Program-made: the position numbers and the translations under genes
DNA from: an uncultured Bacteroidales bacterium
Lineage (GTDB): Bacteria > Bacteroidota > Bacteroidia > Bacteroidales > Muribaculaceae
Direction: 5' to 3'
Assembly: GCA_947072905.1 (NCBI GenBank)
Contig: CAMTKF010000030.1
Span: 1 to 32,792 of the forward strand
Length of the DNA stretch: 32,792 bases
Shown: positions 19,576 through 27,205 of the stretch, in pieces
How the letters are laid out: every line of letters begins with the position of its first letter
Numbering within the stretch: position 1 is the stretch's first letter
Notes under the pieces: generated by a model
Database searches by the model: none
The model's input: the letters and a program-made list of their open reading frames with translations, nothing else
What the model was told of the DNA's origin: nothing

Positions 19576-20733
19576 ATGAAAAAACTGATTGCCTTAATAG
19601 TCGGTATCATCTCTGTAAACATTGCCTTTGGCTTATGCAGGGAGGTTACAGTCACCAATGCCGGCACACTCAGCAATGAGCTTGGCGACAATCAACTGAG
19701 CGTTGACTCGCTTATAGTAAACGGTCCAATTAATGCAGAGGATTTCAAGACCATGTGGGCGGCGTCGTTCTATGGCAACCTGTCTTATATCGACATAGCA
19801 GATGCTGATGTTGAGAATAAGACTATTCCAACCCGCGCCTTCCTTGACGCCTCAGCTCAAACAGATGAAAATAAGGTCTTGATTCCTATAAAGCTTAGAA
19901 AGATTGTTTTGCCTGACGATGTTGAGACTATAGCTTTCCAGGCATTCTACAATGCTGTATATCTCGAAGAAATCAATCTACCACAATCACTCAAAAATCT
20001 TGGGCCTACAAGTTTTGCCAACTGCAAAAGCTTAAGTGTATCGCCATTGATAATCCCCGATGGCATGACATATATACCCGGCGATTGCTTTCACTGGTGC
20101 ACATCGCTGAACCAAGTAATCCTGCCCCCGGGAATAAACATGATTGACGATTGCGCATTCGCTGATTCATCAGTAAAATACATCAATCTTCCTGAGAAAC
20201 TATTCAATATATCATGGTGGGCGTTCAGAAATTCAGGACTGAAAGAGATAGTGATTCCTGAAAATTGCGAATATATAAAATCGGGTGCCTTTGACAAATG
20301 CAAAGACATGGAAATAATGGTTCTTCCATCAACTTTAAGATACCTTGAATCGTACACCTGCGCTAACCTTAAGTCTCTAAAAGCCCTCTATAGTAAAGCT
20401 TCAAAACCACCATACTGCATACAGGATGCGTTATTTGGAGAACTGGCATTCGGACACGTTGACAGTATCCCCGGCGAAAACTCTACGCCAAAGAACATTC
20501 CGGTATATGTACCCGTAGGCTCTGCTGAACTATACCGAAATGCTTCGGGATGGAATTACTTTACAAACTTCATCGAAACAAACGATTTCCCAACATCGGG
20601 CATTGAGGGAATTAAACCTGATACACCCGCTACCATCAACACAATATACGACCTGAGTGGACGCCAAGTGGCAAACCCTATACCGGGTATGGTTTATATC
20701 ATCAACGGAAAAAAGGCTCTATACTCTTTATAA
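19576..20733 (+). CDS. Secreted BspA-type leucine-rich-repeat protein
   Basis: A 385-residue surface or secreted protein. A signal peptide (MKKLIALIVGIISVNIAFGL) is followed by LRR_5/BspA-type repeats of roughly 23 residues between about 85 and 275: for example LRKIVLPDDVETIAFQAFYN, EEINLPQSLKNLGPTSFANC, KEIVIPENCEYIKSGAFDKC. A linker follows, then a short carboxyl-terminal module (IYDLSGRQVANPIPGMVYII, then NGKKAL). That tail resembles the short end domain found on many secreted Prevotella and Muribaculaceae proteins, possibly a secretion or anchoring signal. BspA proteins bind host matrix or other cells; this role is inferred. It stands alone, is more AT-rich than the flanking operons, and ends at a bidirectional terminator. 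Confidence 0.88.
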   Translation: MKKLIALIVGIISVNIAFGLCREVTVTNAGTLSNELGDNQLSVDSLIVNGPINAEDFKTMWAASFYGNLSYIDIADADVENKTIPTRAFLDASAQTDENKVLIPIKLRKIVLPDDVETIAFQAFYNAVYLEEINLPQSLKNLGPTSFANCKSLSVSPLIIPDGMTYIPGDCFHWCTSLNQVILPPGINMIDDCAFADSSVKYINLPEKLFNISWWAFRNSGLKEIVIPENCEYIKSGAFDKCKDMEIMVLPSTLRYLESYTCANLKSLKALYSKASKPPYCIQDALFGELAFGHVDSIPGENSTPKNIPVYVPVGSAELYRNASGWNYFTNFIETNDFPTSGIEGIKPDTPATINTIYDLSGRQVANPIPGMVYIINGKKALYSL

Positions 20734-23386: not shown

Positions 23387-23932
23387 ATGAAAGAAGAAAT
23401 TATCATTGCCGGATTCGGAGGACAAGGCGTCCTCTCCATGGGTAAAATTCTTGCTTACGCAGGACTGATGGACAACCTCGAAGTGACCTGGATGCCGGCC
23501 TATGGACCGGAACAGCGAGGGGGTACGGCAAACGTTACCGTTATCCTGTCTGACGCTCCCATCTCATCTCCCGTACTCGACACATTCGACACTGCCGTTA
23601 TCCTCAACCAGCAGAGCCTCGATAAGTTTGAAAGCAAAGTAAAGCCCGGCGGCACTCTGATTTACGACCCCTCGGGTATACACCATCTGCCCACCCGCAC
23701 CGACATCACCGTGGTGCCCGTCAACGCAATGGATGCTGCCATCGAGATGAAGAACACCAAAACATACAACATGATTCTGCTCGGCTCGCTGCTGGCTCTG
23801 CGCCCCATAGTTGATACCGAAGCCGTAGTGAAAGCGCTCCGCAAAACCCTGCCCGAACGCCATCACCACCTCATCCCCCTCAACGAACAGGCCATCGCCA
23901 AAGGCATGGAACTCTCCAAAGCCGCCCTCTGA
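23387..23932 (+). CDS. 2-oxoacid:ferredoxin oxidoreductase gamma subunit
   Basis: A 181-residue gamma subunit. It opens with the family motif IIIAGFGGQGVLSMGKILAY (residues 6-25) and has the conserved MPAYGPEQRGGTANVTVILS segment thought to engage CoA. Together with the three genes before it, it completes a four-subunit enzyme of anaerobic 2-oxoacid metabolism (amino-acid fermentation or reductive carboxylation). It is the last gene of the operon and ends 38 bases before a perfect inverted repeat. Confidence 0.93.
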   Translation: MKEEIIIAGFGGQGVLSMGKILAYAGLMDNLEVTWMPAYGPEQRGGTANVTVILSDAPISSPVLDTFDTAVILNQQSLDKFESKVKPGGTLIYDPSGIHHLPTRTDITVVPVNAMDAAIEMKNTKTYNMILLGSLLALRPIVDTEAVVKALRKTLPERHHHLIPLNEQAIAKGMELSKAAL

Positions 23933-23970
23933 CAATAACTCCTACTCAGGTAAGTATTTAATCTTACCGT

Positions 23971-24024
23971 AACTAAAATAATAATGCTACCGAAATTAAG
24001 ATCGGTAGCATTATTATTTTAGTT
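23971..24024. terminator. Bidirectional terminator, perfect 23-bp inverted repeat
   Basis: Positions 23971-23993 and 24002-24024 are exact reverse complements around an 8-nt loop. The stem base is AT-rich, giving ATTATTTTAGTT on the way out in both directions. It separates the converging oxidoreductase operon and ATPase pair. Confidence 0.85.
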
Positions 24025-24066
24025 AAAATGAGCGACTAATCGCTATACACTCAATAAAAAACAATA

Positions 24067-24828
24067 TTATTGATGATAAAGCTTCACAATATCGGGGCAT
24101 TTTTTACGTGCAACTTCTTTTGAAATATCCATGCCGTGATATTCGTTATTTCTATTTCTTCTAAATTCTACAAAAGTCTTGAACTTGGTATCGTAAGTAT
24201 AAAGAAATGTATCATCATCAACATCGCCCGGATATTCTTCATAAGCTTTTCTTAGAAGCGCTCTTGCATAATCTTCGTTATATTTGTCATACGCAGAAAA
24301 AGGCGAAACCTCTTTATTACCGTCTATGCGTTTTTCCTGATAGTGTTTAAGCTGATTCAGCTTGGGTGCATAAGACTCTATCTTTTCTTTAAAAGATAAT
24401 GCCGTTTGAGGATTAAAGTTTATAATCGTGGCATGACCTTTATCTGATGACAAAATAAAATCTTCGACATGGCTTGCAATGCCGGCATAGATTCTTTTTG
24501 CATCTTTGTGCAGATAAACAGCATATAACTGTTGTTTGGCTGTATCCCGTTCCATATCATTGCAGTCGGCCAATACATCCGGATTCAACTTGATGTAGTT
24601 TGCCTTCTTTACAGGTATGACCTCTTGTACGGGCAACTCCAGTAACCATGAAAAAAGTTCATAATCTCGGGCTATGCCCGGGCACTGAGTTAGAAACTCA
24701 CACCAATTCTCAGGAACATATATGGTAACTCCGGTCGGTAAGTCAAACAGTGAGAGTCTTTCAAATTCATTATTTCCATTGCAACCGTTTGCAATTATAG
24801 GTATATGTGGAGCAACTGCAATATTCAT
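24067..24828 (-). CDS. Unknown 253-aa partner of the AAA ATPase
   Basis: I do not recognise a family. The product is soluble-looking: no signal peptide and no membrane helix. It starts MNIAVAPHIPIIANGCNGNN, has a mixed central region with a Lys/Glu-rich stretch (about 105-185) and ends in a distinctive segment TFVEFRRNRNNEYHGMDI (218-235) with clustered Arg, Asn, Glu and His. Such a segment could be a nucleic-acid-binding or catalytic site, but no HNH, Toprim, PD-(D/E)XK or HEPN motif is evident. Its start overlaps the ATPase stop by 4 bases (ATGA), so the two proteins are made together. It is AT-rich relative to the oxidoreductase operon, consistent with acquisition. By position it is the likely effector or accessory subunit. 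Confidence 0.75.
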   Translation of the reverse strand: MNIAVAPHIPIIANGCNGNNEFERLSLFDLPTGVTIYVPENWCEFLTQCPGIARDYELFSWLLELPVQEVIPVKKANYIKLNPDVLADCNDMERDTAKQQLYAVYLHKDAKRIYAGIASHVEDFILSSDKGHATIINFNPQTALSFKEKIESYAPKLNQLKHYQEKRIDGNKEVSPFSAYDKYNEDYARALLRKAYEEYPGDVDDDTFLYTYDTKFKTFVEFRRNRNNEYHGMDISKEVARKKCPDIVKLYHQ

Positions 24829-26102
24829 TTTCTGTTTGCTTCAAGAATGGCCTTAAAATCCTGGTCTCTCGTATCCATAAAGCCGGGAGGCATAGAGCCT
24901 GTCATTCGTCCTGTATCAGACAGTGGAATTGTCTTATAAATGCTTTCGCCTGATTCGCTTATCACAAATATAAGATGTACCTTGTCGAAATCAACCACTT
25001 TCTCGGCAATGCGCCTGCGCAGTCTGGTAATGAAATGATCGCTGTGTGTTTCGGTCATTACTGCCACCTTACGTTCATTACACAAGAAAATGAAAAAATC
25101 GGCCATAGACGCCTGAATACTCGGATGCATGTGAACCTCAGGGTCTTCTACTATCATAAGCGAATTTCGCGGAGAAATACATCCTTGGGTTATAATAGGC
25201 AGTATTTGGCTTAGTCCAAAGCCCATGTGCACCAGGTCTACTTTTAAATCTTCGTTGGTTGTGACAACCACCCTATATCGTTTCCCGCTTTCTTTCACCA
25301 CATTGATGTCTTTAGCAAGGTGAAATTCATCGCAGAGCCATCTTTTTACCAAACCGATTTTGGCCAAATCATTTGAAATTTCATCCAAAATAAACCGCGT
25401 GTTCTCGCCGTCAGGAAGAATATAACCTTTCTCTACATCTGTCTGGTAAGTTCGGGCAAGAACAGGTGCCACACGAAGAGGTGCTATGTAAACTACTTTT
25501 TCCAAATAATTTACAAGGTATGATCTTGCTGCCTTTATATCCTGAAAATTATAGGTTACTCCATCTTTGCTTGCAAAGATGGGGAAGAAATTTGCAAACG
25601 AATAATCGTCCAAATGTAAGTCCTTAATGTACTCGTTATTATATCTAAGATCAAATACTTTCTTCCTTGGTCGATAAATCAAATTAAATCCGGAAGGAGA
25701 AGCTGTCTTGAAAAACTGAATATATGTAAATTCCGACAAAACACATGTATCAGGTCTCACCCTGAATGTCGCTGAAATCTCTATGTTGTTTAAGTCACCT
25801 TCAATAGGAAGTTCTTCAGCATCTACCTGGCTAAATTCTTCTTTAGATAACTTCAGGACAAATTTCATGTCCCCATTACGTTTATTATGCACAAGATCCA
25901 ACAGAGAGTTTGCATATACATATGGCCCGTCAATATTCAGCATCTCGCTCATAGAAGTCGTTAGAGTCTGCTTTAACAGCAGTAGAGCTTGTATGAGTGA
26001 ACTCTTACCACTGCTGTTAACACCGGCAAGAACGGTAAGATTGGAAACATCCACATCTACGACTTCTTCGATTGACTTAAAGTTATATACACTTAAAAGC
26101 AT
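24825..26102 (-). CDS. SMC/OLD-like AAA ATPase with DUF3696-like tail
   Basis: A 425-residue ABC/SMC-type ATPase. The amino terminus (YNFKSIEEVVDVDVSNLTVL) leads into Walker A GVNSSGKSS (27-35). A long insert follows, then a signature-like HMGFGLSQILPI (about 290-305), Walker B LMIVEDPEVHMHPS (315-328), and the switch segment TETHSDHF (350-357). The end, SMPPGFMDTRDQDFKAILEA, is the pattern I associate with DUF3696. Proteins of this class are found in many anti-phage systems (OLD, Septu, PARIS and others) alongside an effector. Here no Toprim nuclease is fused, so activity must lie in the downstream 253-residue partner or be absent. A TACCTTTG -7 box lies about 90 bases upstream. Confidence 0.85.
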   Translation of the reverse strand: MLLSVYNFKSIEEVVDVDVSNLTVLAGVNSSGKSSLIQALLLLKQTLTTSMSEMLNIDGPYVYANSLLDLVHNKRNGDMKFVLKLSKEEFSQVDAEELPIEGDLNNIEISATFRVRPDTCVLSEFTYIQFFKTASPSGFNLIYRPRKKVFDLRYNNEYIKDLHLDDYSFANFFPIFASKDGVTYNFQDIKAARSYLVNYLEKVVYIAPLRVAPVLARTYQTDVEKGYILPDGENTRFILDEISNDLAKIGLVKRWLCDEFHLAKDINVVKESGKRYRVVVTTNEDLKVDLVHMGFGLSQILPIITQGCISPRNSLMIVEDPEVHMHPSIQASMADFFIFLCNERKVAVMTETHSDHFITRLRRRIAEKVVDFDKVHLIFVISESGESIYKTIPLSDTGRMTGSMPPGFMDTRDQDFKAILEANRK

Positions 26103-26194
26103 AATAAACAGAAATTTAATTAATTAGCAAATATTCTAATATATGCTGCAAAGGGGATTTACATCCAAAATCACACAATCAGACTTTATAAATA

Positions 26195-26202
26195 CAAAGG
26201 TA
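26195..26202 (-). promoter_or_regulatory. Possible -7 box for the ATPase pair (TACCTTTG)
   Basis: TACCTTTG on the minus strand fits TAnnTTTG. No TTTG -33 element lies at the right distance, so activity may be low or need an activator. The leader would be about 85 nt. Confidence 0.35.
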
Positions 26203-26252
26203 ATAAATTTTTTCAACATATAAATTAGCACAACAAACCATTTGCTTAACGA

Positions 26253-26296
26253 GTGTTTGAATTAGAGCTTGTTTAAACAAACTCTAATTCAAACAC
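26253..26296 (-). terminator. Perfect 15-bp inverted repeat with a palindromic loop
   Basis: Positions 26253-26267 and 26282-26296 are exact reverse complements. The loop itself contains the 12-bp palindrome TTGTTTAAACAA (26269-26280), so the pairing continues almost to the tip. It lies 38 bases past the end of the sigma-factor operon and upstream of the ATPase pair, and probably terminates the former. There is no T-tract. Confidence 0.55.
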
Positions 26297-26334
26297 ACAT
26301 TTAAACAACAATCTATAATAATTTATAATCGTAT

Positions 26335-26718
26335 TTACTTTTTGCCCGAAATTGACAGGCGGGCATTGGTGAGTTCGTAGGCATTCAGAGCTATGAAGGT
26401 ACTCATAATTGCAGCCAATATCCATCCTATGATCTGATGATTGAGCATGATATCCTGAAAGCCCGGTACGGGCAGCGATACCGCAGAGAGCCGGCTGCCT
26501 ATAAGCGGGAACAGCAATGTGACTATCACACCCGCTACAAAGCCCGACAGGGCAGCCACAGCAAGAGAAATCACATTGCGGCGGCGTGCAGCCGACGCAT
26601 CTCGCTTCACTATCTCCAGAACTTCCATATTCTTTTGCAAGCGGTCTAAAAACTTATTGTCAGAAGACAGCTCAGGCTGAAAATTCAGGAATATATCTTT
26701 TAATTTATCATCTTCCAT
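26335..26718 (-). CDS. Two-TM membrane protein encoded after the ECF sigma factor
   Basis: A 127-residue protein when started at the ATG at 26718; an upstream TTG at 26733 overlaps the sigma-factor gene and is less likely. About 50 cytoplasmic residues (MEDDKLKDIFLNFQPELSSD...) precede two membrane helices (NVISLAVAALSGFVAGVIVT and MLNHQIIGWILAAIMSTFIA). The position right after an ECF sigma gene and the cytoplasmic amino-terminal domain suggest an anti-sigma-like role. It lacks the zinc-binding HxxxCxxC motif of classical anti-sigma factors. Similar short proteins follow ECF genes in other Bacteroidales, as far as I recall. The role is inferred. Confidence 0.75.
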   Translation of the reverse strand: MEDDKLKDIFLNFQPELSSDNKFLDRLQKNMEVLEIVKRDASAARRRNVISLAVAALSGFVAGVIVTLLFPLIGSRLSAVSLPVPGFQDIMLNHQIIGWILAAIMSTFIALNAYELTNARLSISGKK

Positions 26719-26722
26719 AATC

Positions 26723-27205
26723 TTAATTATCAATCGTTAAAATGCCTCGCAGATGATTGCGGCCTCGCGACAGGTGTTGTTTCACCGCACCCTCAGAAGC
26801 CTCTACTATCGCCGATATTTCTTTTATAGAATAACCTTCCATATAATACAGCAATACCGATGTGCGCTCCTTGGCCGGCAAGCGGTTCAAAGCATCATAC
26901 AAGTCCTGATATCGAAACTGCGAATCCGCGCTTTCGTTGGCCGGTATCTCACGTGCTTCCTCGTAGCTGTTGAAATTTCTGGACGAACGGCGGTTGTCGA
27001 TAAATGTATTATAGCCTATTCTGAAGATCCATGCCTTGAACTTGTCTACACCGCTTACATCATCACACGCCATGTATGCCTTGATATATGTTTCCTGTGC
27101 TATATCATCTGCGAGCTGCGAATCGCCGCAGCATAGGGCCACAAGGAAGCGTCGCAGCTCCCTTTGTGTGCCCTCTACAGCGGATTTGAATTGCCCGCGG
27201 TTCAT
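26723..27205 (-). CDS. ECF-type RNA polymerase sigma factor
   Basis: A 160-residue sigma-70 family protein with only regions 2 and 4. Region 2 is seen in LADDIAQETYIKAYMACDDV and FKAWIFRIGYNTFIDNRR. Region 4 is LNRLPAKERTSVLLYYMEGY followed by the helix-turn-helix SIKEISAIVEASEGAVKQHL. The ATG at 27205 lies 3 bases after the stop of the DUF6249 gene, and the next gene starts 4 bases after its own stop, so all three are one transcript. An ECF-like promoter ahead of the operon suggests autoregulation. The inducing signal is unknown. Confidence 0.93.
   Translation of the reverse strand: MNRGQFKSAVEGTQRELRRFLVALCCGDSQLADDIAQETYIKAYMACDDVSGVDKFKAWIFRIGYNTFIDNRRSSRNFNSYEEAREIPANESADSQFRYQDLYDALNRLPAKERTSVLLYYMEGYSIKEISAIVEASEGAVKQHLSRGRNHLRGILTIDN

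Follow-up and report, generated by a model that had tools for sequence, protein, structure and literature searches.

Menshen is a three-gene anti-phage system consisting of NsnA, which we take to be the DUF262 protein, NsnB and NsnC. PARIS (AriA-AriB) holds an AAA_15-type ATPase and an effector in two genes, and here the ATPase likely restrains the effector, being sensor and antidote together. Mariano and Blower (PMC10952713) report that Menshen no longer confers resistance once its DUF262 gene is mutated or deleted, and that a Toprim domain of the OLD type is present in one of its components. The ptuXYZ genes (Gerdes 2025) have the layout of Menshen and we infer that the two are one system; the name Menshen does not occur in the paper (PMC11980606), which describes the PIN-like part of PtuZ as lacking catalytic residues. 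Here, we address a pair of genes in a window of 32,792 nucleotides (the whole stretch of DNA analysed, GenBank contig CAMTKF010000030.1, our C30) from an uncultured bacterium of the Muribaculaceae (GCA_947072905.1), whose 2.69 Mb genome is 99.9% complete and lies on 94 contigs. The pair is probably a two-gene relative of Menshen (NsnA-NsnB-NsnC), holding an NsnB-type ATPase and an NsnC-type partner only, in which the ATPase would silence a toxin-like tail until a phage cue appears.

Both genes lie on the minus strand, where the original prediction had placed them. The ATPase gene (24825..26102, 425 residues) is followed by the partner gene (24067..24828, 253 residues), and the stop of the former and the start of the latter have four bases in common (ATGA, 24825..24828), an overlap also present in loci L003 and L059. 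The two-gene module that had been proposed is conserved, as it was seen again in L003 (Muribaculaceae bacterium Isolate-037), the one relative among 29 pattern stretches found by searching genome contigs. There, the ATPase is 61% and the partner 47% identical to those of the window, with the overlap kept; its neighbours are, by eye, a Rng-like gene and transporters, and there is a small winged-helix gene on the other strand, matched by HTH_24.

As in Menshen, the ATPase stands before an NsnC-type protein, the C-terminal module of the latter is the same, and the genes are close or overlapping. The partner had been put forward as not matching known partners, a claim overturned by this module: the sole PADLOC match of the partner at E<=1 is NsnC PDLC03909, over residues 185-250 (about 65 residues, 1.4e-6), and the L003 partner matches the same model over the corresponding part (2.1e-6). 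The module (residues 185-253, 24070..24276, minus strand) carries the signature YD...fV.F...N.YHG..I, and its predicted model is a helix, three strands and a helix. Its best structural match is a toxin, CdiA of Cupriavidus taiwanensis (5T87), with a similar fold over about 66 residues and the signature D...fV.F...YHG common to both in profile alignments; as this comparison only revisits the list that Foldseek had returned, the absence of other folds from it is uninformative. A contact-dependent inhibition (CDI) toxin fold is moderately supported for the tail. Unlike a CDI toxin, the tail has no CdiA carrier; it ends a 253-residue protein, and the ATPase gene is the sole partner gene next to it. 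The N-terminal part (residues 1-184, 24277..24828, minus strand) does not match NsnC, evolves fast, and its model is of low confidence, with a predicted local distance difference test score below 50 across residues 1-169. Pfam, NCBIfam and PHROGs returned nothing significant for the partner, and no HNH.

The ATPase is of the ABC/SMC type and, as predicted, of a kind used in defence, with Pfam matches to AAA_15 (1.2e-24) and AAA_21 (1e-14). Its motifs are all intact on the minus strand: Walker A GVNSSGKS (residues 27-34, 26001..26024), the ABC signature GFGLSQ (294-299, 25206..25223), Walker B LMIVEDP (315-321, 25140..25160) and the H-loop ETHS (351-354, 25041..25052). Just 71 residues follow the H-loop, too few to accommodate a Toprim nuclease domain, and none was matched in Pfam. 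A DUF3696-like tail had also been claimed for this protein; Pfam gives no such match at E<=1, and the annotation is carried only by the relative in L011.

The pair differs from Menshen in lacking NsnA, in an ATPase outside the Menshen clade and in the unmatched N-terminus of the partner. No NsnA/DUF262 gene lies between 23932 and 26335, and PF03235 has no match across the genome, with the control positive in 8 of 14 genomes. In an ATPase tree of 29 rows, a branch supported at 100/98 has all 14 Menshen-group rows, and no others, on one side; the ATPases of the window and L003 stand outside this group. A DUF262 profile, built from three Menshen-group loci and agreeing with PF03235 in five of five tested, matches beside 13 of these 14 rows; L053 was placed in the group without a match. 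The window and L003 group at 100/100 and join L014 and L059 at 88/95, below the tool's star. Six forks are open, deep ones included, and the tool flags long branches, so that the placement outside the Menshen clade is the one firm result of the tree. The absence of both DUF262 and Toprim speaks against the pair using Menshen's own mechanism, and another trigger must be assumed.

The NsnB profile match is not diagnostic. The best PADLOC model for the ATPase is Menshen NsnB (1.1e-55, 188 bits), followed by PDC-M55A and HEC-03B. We rejected this score as proof of Menshen, since ATPases with unrelated partners (L009, L011, L012, L013) score alike, at 168, 188, 234 and 258 bits; the window ATPase is not thereby an NsnB. 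Three ATPases beside DUF262 reach 304-366 bits, and 11 Menshen-group ATPases (L047-L057, among which L053 has no DUF262 match) 260-372 bits. Membership in other described systems was also rejected. PARIS is similar in its AAA_15-type ATPase and two-gene form, whereas the window partner has no AriB match and its ATPase scores 95 bits for AriA against 188 for NsnB. For Septu, the PtuA model gives 16 bits against a cut-off of 500, and the partner has no HNH (PtuB) match. OLD and Gabija GajA are set aside by the short stretch after the H-loop and the missing Toprim match.

NsnB-like ATPases also stand directly before partner genes that lack the NsnC tail, both in P2-type phages (L012, P2-EC5 ORF555/ORF333; L013:2424-5370, a Klebsiella P2-like phage) and on a Pseudoalteromonas megaplasmid (L011:5374-7775). 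These three are candidate two-gene defence cargo with other effectors. Another ATPase lineage stands in L015:4585-8825 and L016 behind a large gene that looks AAA-like by eye and before a partner of about 311 residues, which has no PADLOC match at 1e-20; PDC-M55A is the best PADLOC model for the ATPase of L009, and L009 and L015 hold one and the same gene.

The pair is rare. The partner protein was found only in its own genome, among 146 relatives and again among 395 genomes of the phylum, and the tail profile likewise in one of 168 genomes family-wide. Of four NsnC-family matches in the 395 phylum genomes, one is our own and one is G315 (L004/L017). The remaining two, L006 and L007, are N-terminal and lie in long proteins (871 residues and an open frame of 907); they were dropped as chance-like, L006 being the one inspected. 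Profile A3 gave eight matches at E<=0.01 in 393 genomes of the order: our own, G621 (L014), G097 (L025), G671 (L026), a fragment at the end of a contig in G096 (L027), and three weak hits (L022-L024, E 0.001-0.009) also dropped as chance-like. The NsnB family was matched in 17 of 198 class genomes, and among 18 further loci read, the tail occurred only in L059 (G949); for the ATPase, 4 genomes among 245 relatives match at 1e-20, our own included. Scans of viral contigs with profiles A1 and A2 (92 and 149 pattern stretches) yielded no relative. In tblastn searches, the partner had no match in plasmids or phages, and the NsnC-type proteins from L008, L004, L026 and L025 had none in plasmids.

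Where the tail is complete, it follows directly after an NsnB-type ATPase in all seven cases (window, L003, L014, L059, L025, L026 and L017), a count that is not unbiased, because some cases were found by searching with either member. Partner homologues that always lack the ATPase would have broken the module idea; none of these seven lacks it. In L025, L026 and L017 a PF03235 DUF262 gene stands directly before NsnB, and further genes encode a type I restriction R subunit (L025), a D12 adenine methylase (L026), and a cytosine methylase with an HNH_2 gene (L017). The tail is absent from all 11 Menshen-group loci L047-L057 among open reading frames of at least 60 residues; nine have a partner frame of at least 239 residues, the exceptions being L053 and L055. 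As these Menshen ATPases work with NsnCs of other tails, the tail is one of several exchangeable NsnC endings, and 18 different NsnC models were matched across the loci examined. Since the endings are exchanged while the ATPase type is constant, the partner is most likely the effector, as originally predicted. In L047 (6111-6965), the NsnC ends (residues 185-282) in a domain that a CARF_DUF2103 protein also has at its C-terminus (5.8e-13), which links a Menshen effector to CRISPR ancillary proteins; the endings in L048 and L057 look RelE-like and PLD-like, judged by eye only.

Three other explanations can be weighed against this material. The pair could be the dying remnant of a Menshen system that recently lost NsnA, which its NsnC-type tail, NsnB-type ATPase and DUF262-free genome would fit. 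Yet the pair is intact at two separate loci with no adjacent DUF262 gene, and both ATPases lie outside the Menshen side of the tree, nearest to other DUF262-free pairs; the tree, with its deep forks open, makes such a loss very unlikely. Somewhat less improbable, but still unlikely, is a plain toxin-antitoxin pair that maintains itself with the ATPase as antitoxin and has no phage trigger. Two overlapping genes of low GC content, sporadic occurrence and a toxin-like tail are what it would predict; however, the antitoxin would be unusually large and equipped with the full ABC-ATPase motifs, and the DNA methylases, restriction subunit and DUF262 beside related NsnB-NsnC pairs speak for defence.

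A different division of labour within the partner is slightly more likely than these two, though still unlikely: the tail would be a docking or sensing domain and the N-terminal part, PIN-like in PtuZ, the catalytic effector. Between the window and L003, the tail is 66.7% identical and partner residues 1-150 only 36.7%, and the constant company of NsnB-type ATPases also suits docking. Against this stand the exchangeability of the tail, absent from the 11 Menshen-group loci, the alternative ending common to a CARF protein, the toxin as best structural match and a PIN-like part in PtuZ devoid of catalytic residues (PMC11980606).

Our best reading remains that the pair is a lineage beside Menshen's NsnB-NsnC core and a defence-like pair of ATPase and effector. 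The two overlapping genes are probably co-translated, and the ATPase would bind the partner and keep it silent. Upon sensing a phage product or a DNA state, the ATPase would free or activate the toxin-like tail. The tail would most likely act as a nuclease, probably on RNA, and would halt growth before the phage multiplies. As in PARIS, the ATPase would be sensor and antidote in one, with no dedicated immunity gene. Between the window and L003, ATPase residues 101-200 are, like partner residues 1-150, fast-varying, being only 40% identical against about 67% for the rest of the ATPase. In this comparison of two sequences, the fast-varying parts of both proteins could reflect a sensing or contact surface that changes while the enzyme core stays fixed.

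Sister operons in two different families (L059:594-9670 and L014:1-6589) encode an NsnB-type ATPase, an NsnC-type protein, an HSP90-like ATPase (HATPase_c_3) and a radical-SAM protein. They belong to the nearest ATPase lineage, have the same partner tail and show no DUF262 in the stretches read, whereas neither HSP90-like nor radical-SAM genes accompany the pair in the window or in L003. In L059, a second HSP90-like gene stands before NsnB and a 582-residue gene before that; the mad8 match of the latter (1e-7) is uninformative, as ordinary ABC-transporter ATPases of the window match mad8 too. The gene ahead of NsnB in L014 is truncated where the contig begins and has no Pfam match; by eye it resembles the end of an HSP90-like gene. 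These operons could be a separate multi-gene defence system, and they suggest that other sensor-like genes are combined with the NsnB-NsnC core.

In the window, the pair has ordinary neighbours and stands between a convergent three-gene 2-oxoacid:ferredoxin oxidoreductase operon on one side and an ECF sigma factor with a FecCD/ABC transporter on the other. Two hairpins had been taken to isolate it. Both are real, being the only inverted repeats reported in 23900-26400 (arms of at least 12 nt, at most 60 apart), and neither is among the three sites of a terminator scan. The hairpin at 23970..24025 (arms 23970-23993/24002-24025, 24 nt, 100% complementary) is probably a two-way terminator between the pair and the oxidoreductase operon. 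The other, 26248..26301 (arms 26248-26274/26275-26301, 27 nt, 89%), probably ends the upstream gene rather than bounding the pair, as it is placed behind the end of 26335-26733 on the same strand. The greater AT-richness of the pair holds: its genes have GC contents of 0.375 and 0.397, and third-position values (GC3) of 0.327 and 0.385, the lowest of 25 scored genes (out of 28 listed open reading frames), the other 23 ranging over 0.425-0.566 and 0.435-0.685. Next lowest, at GC 0.425, is a BspA-type leucine-rich-repeat protein (19576-20733; LRR_5, 3.9e-47). This rare two-gene cassette was probably acquired. Co-location with a defence island, part of the original expectation, was not seen in a test limited to 10 neighbouring proteins of the window. 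Eight of these lack a PADLOC match at 1e-10; the remaining two are ABC-transporter ATPases that match mad3/mad8/AriA models via the common ATPase domain.

The oxidoreductase gene is present in 46 of 49 genomes of the genus, and the genes after its operon vary among the loci read. Thirty loci were compared, one of them that of the window. Its upstream gene, sigma factor and next membrane gene were matched in none of the other 29 at 1e-3, nor in 10 longer stretches at 1e-10. With these flanking genes unmatched and L082 and L090 offering just 593 and 142 bases behind the oxidoreductase gene, no clean empty site is demonstrable. In a sister species (G034, L097:2548-4201), an AbiEi/AbiEii toxin-antitoxin pair (Pfam) lies directly behind the oxidoreductase operon, where the window has its pair, a weak hint of a defence location.

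More tentatively, and with less confidence than in the kinship to Menshen, the pair may be a minimal immune system of two genes. An ABC-type ATPase would act as phage sensor and antidote, a domain of CDI-type interbacterial weapons would be put to new use within the cell, as an effector of abortive infection, and a core NsnB-NsnC module would have been joined independently to DUF262 or to HSP90-like ATPases, or left on its own. Were this true, two genes would be the smallest working unit in the Menshen-like family, and what NsnA contributes could be tested directly. A CDI-type toxin fold would also be linked to phage defence within the cell, with an ATPase doing the work of the immunity protein.
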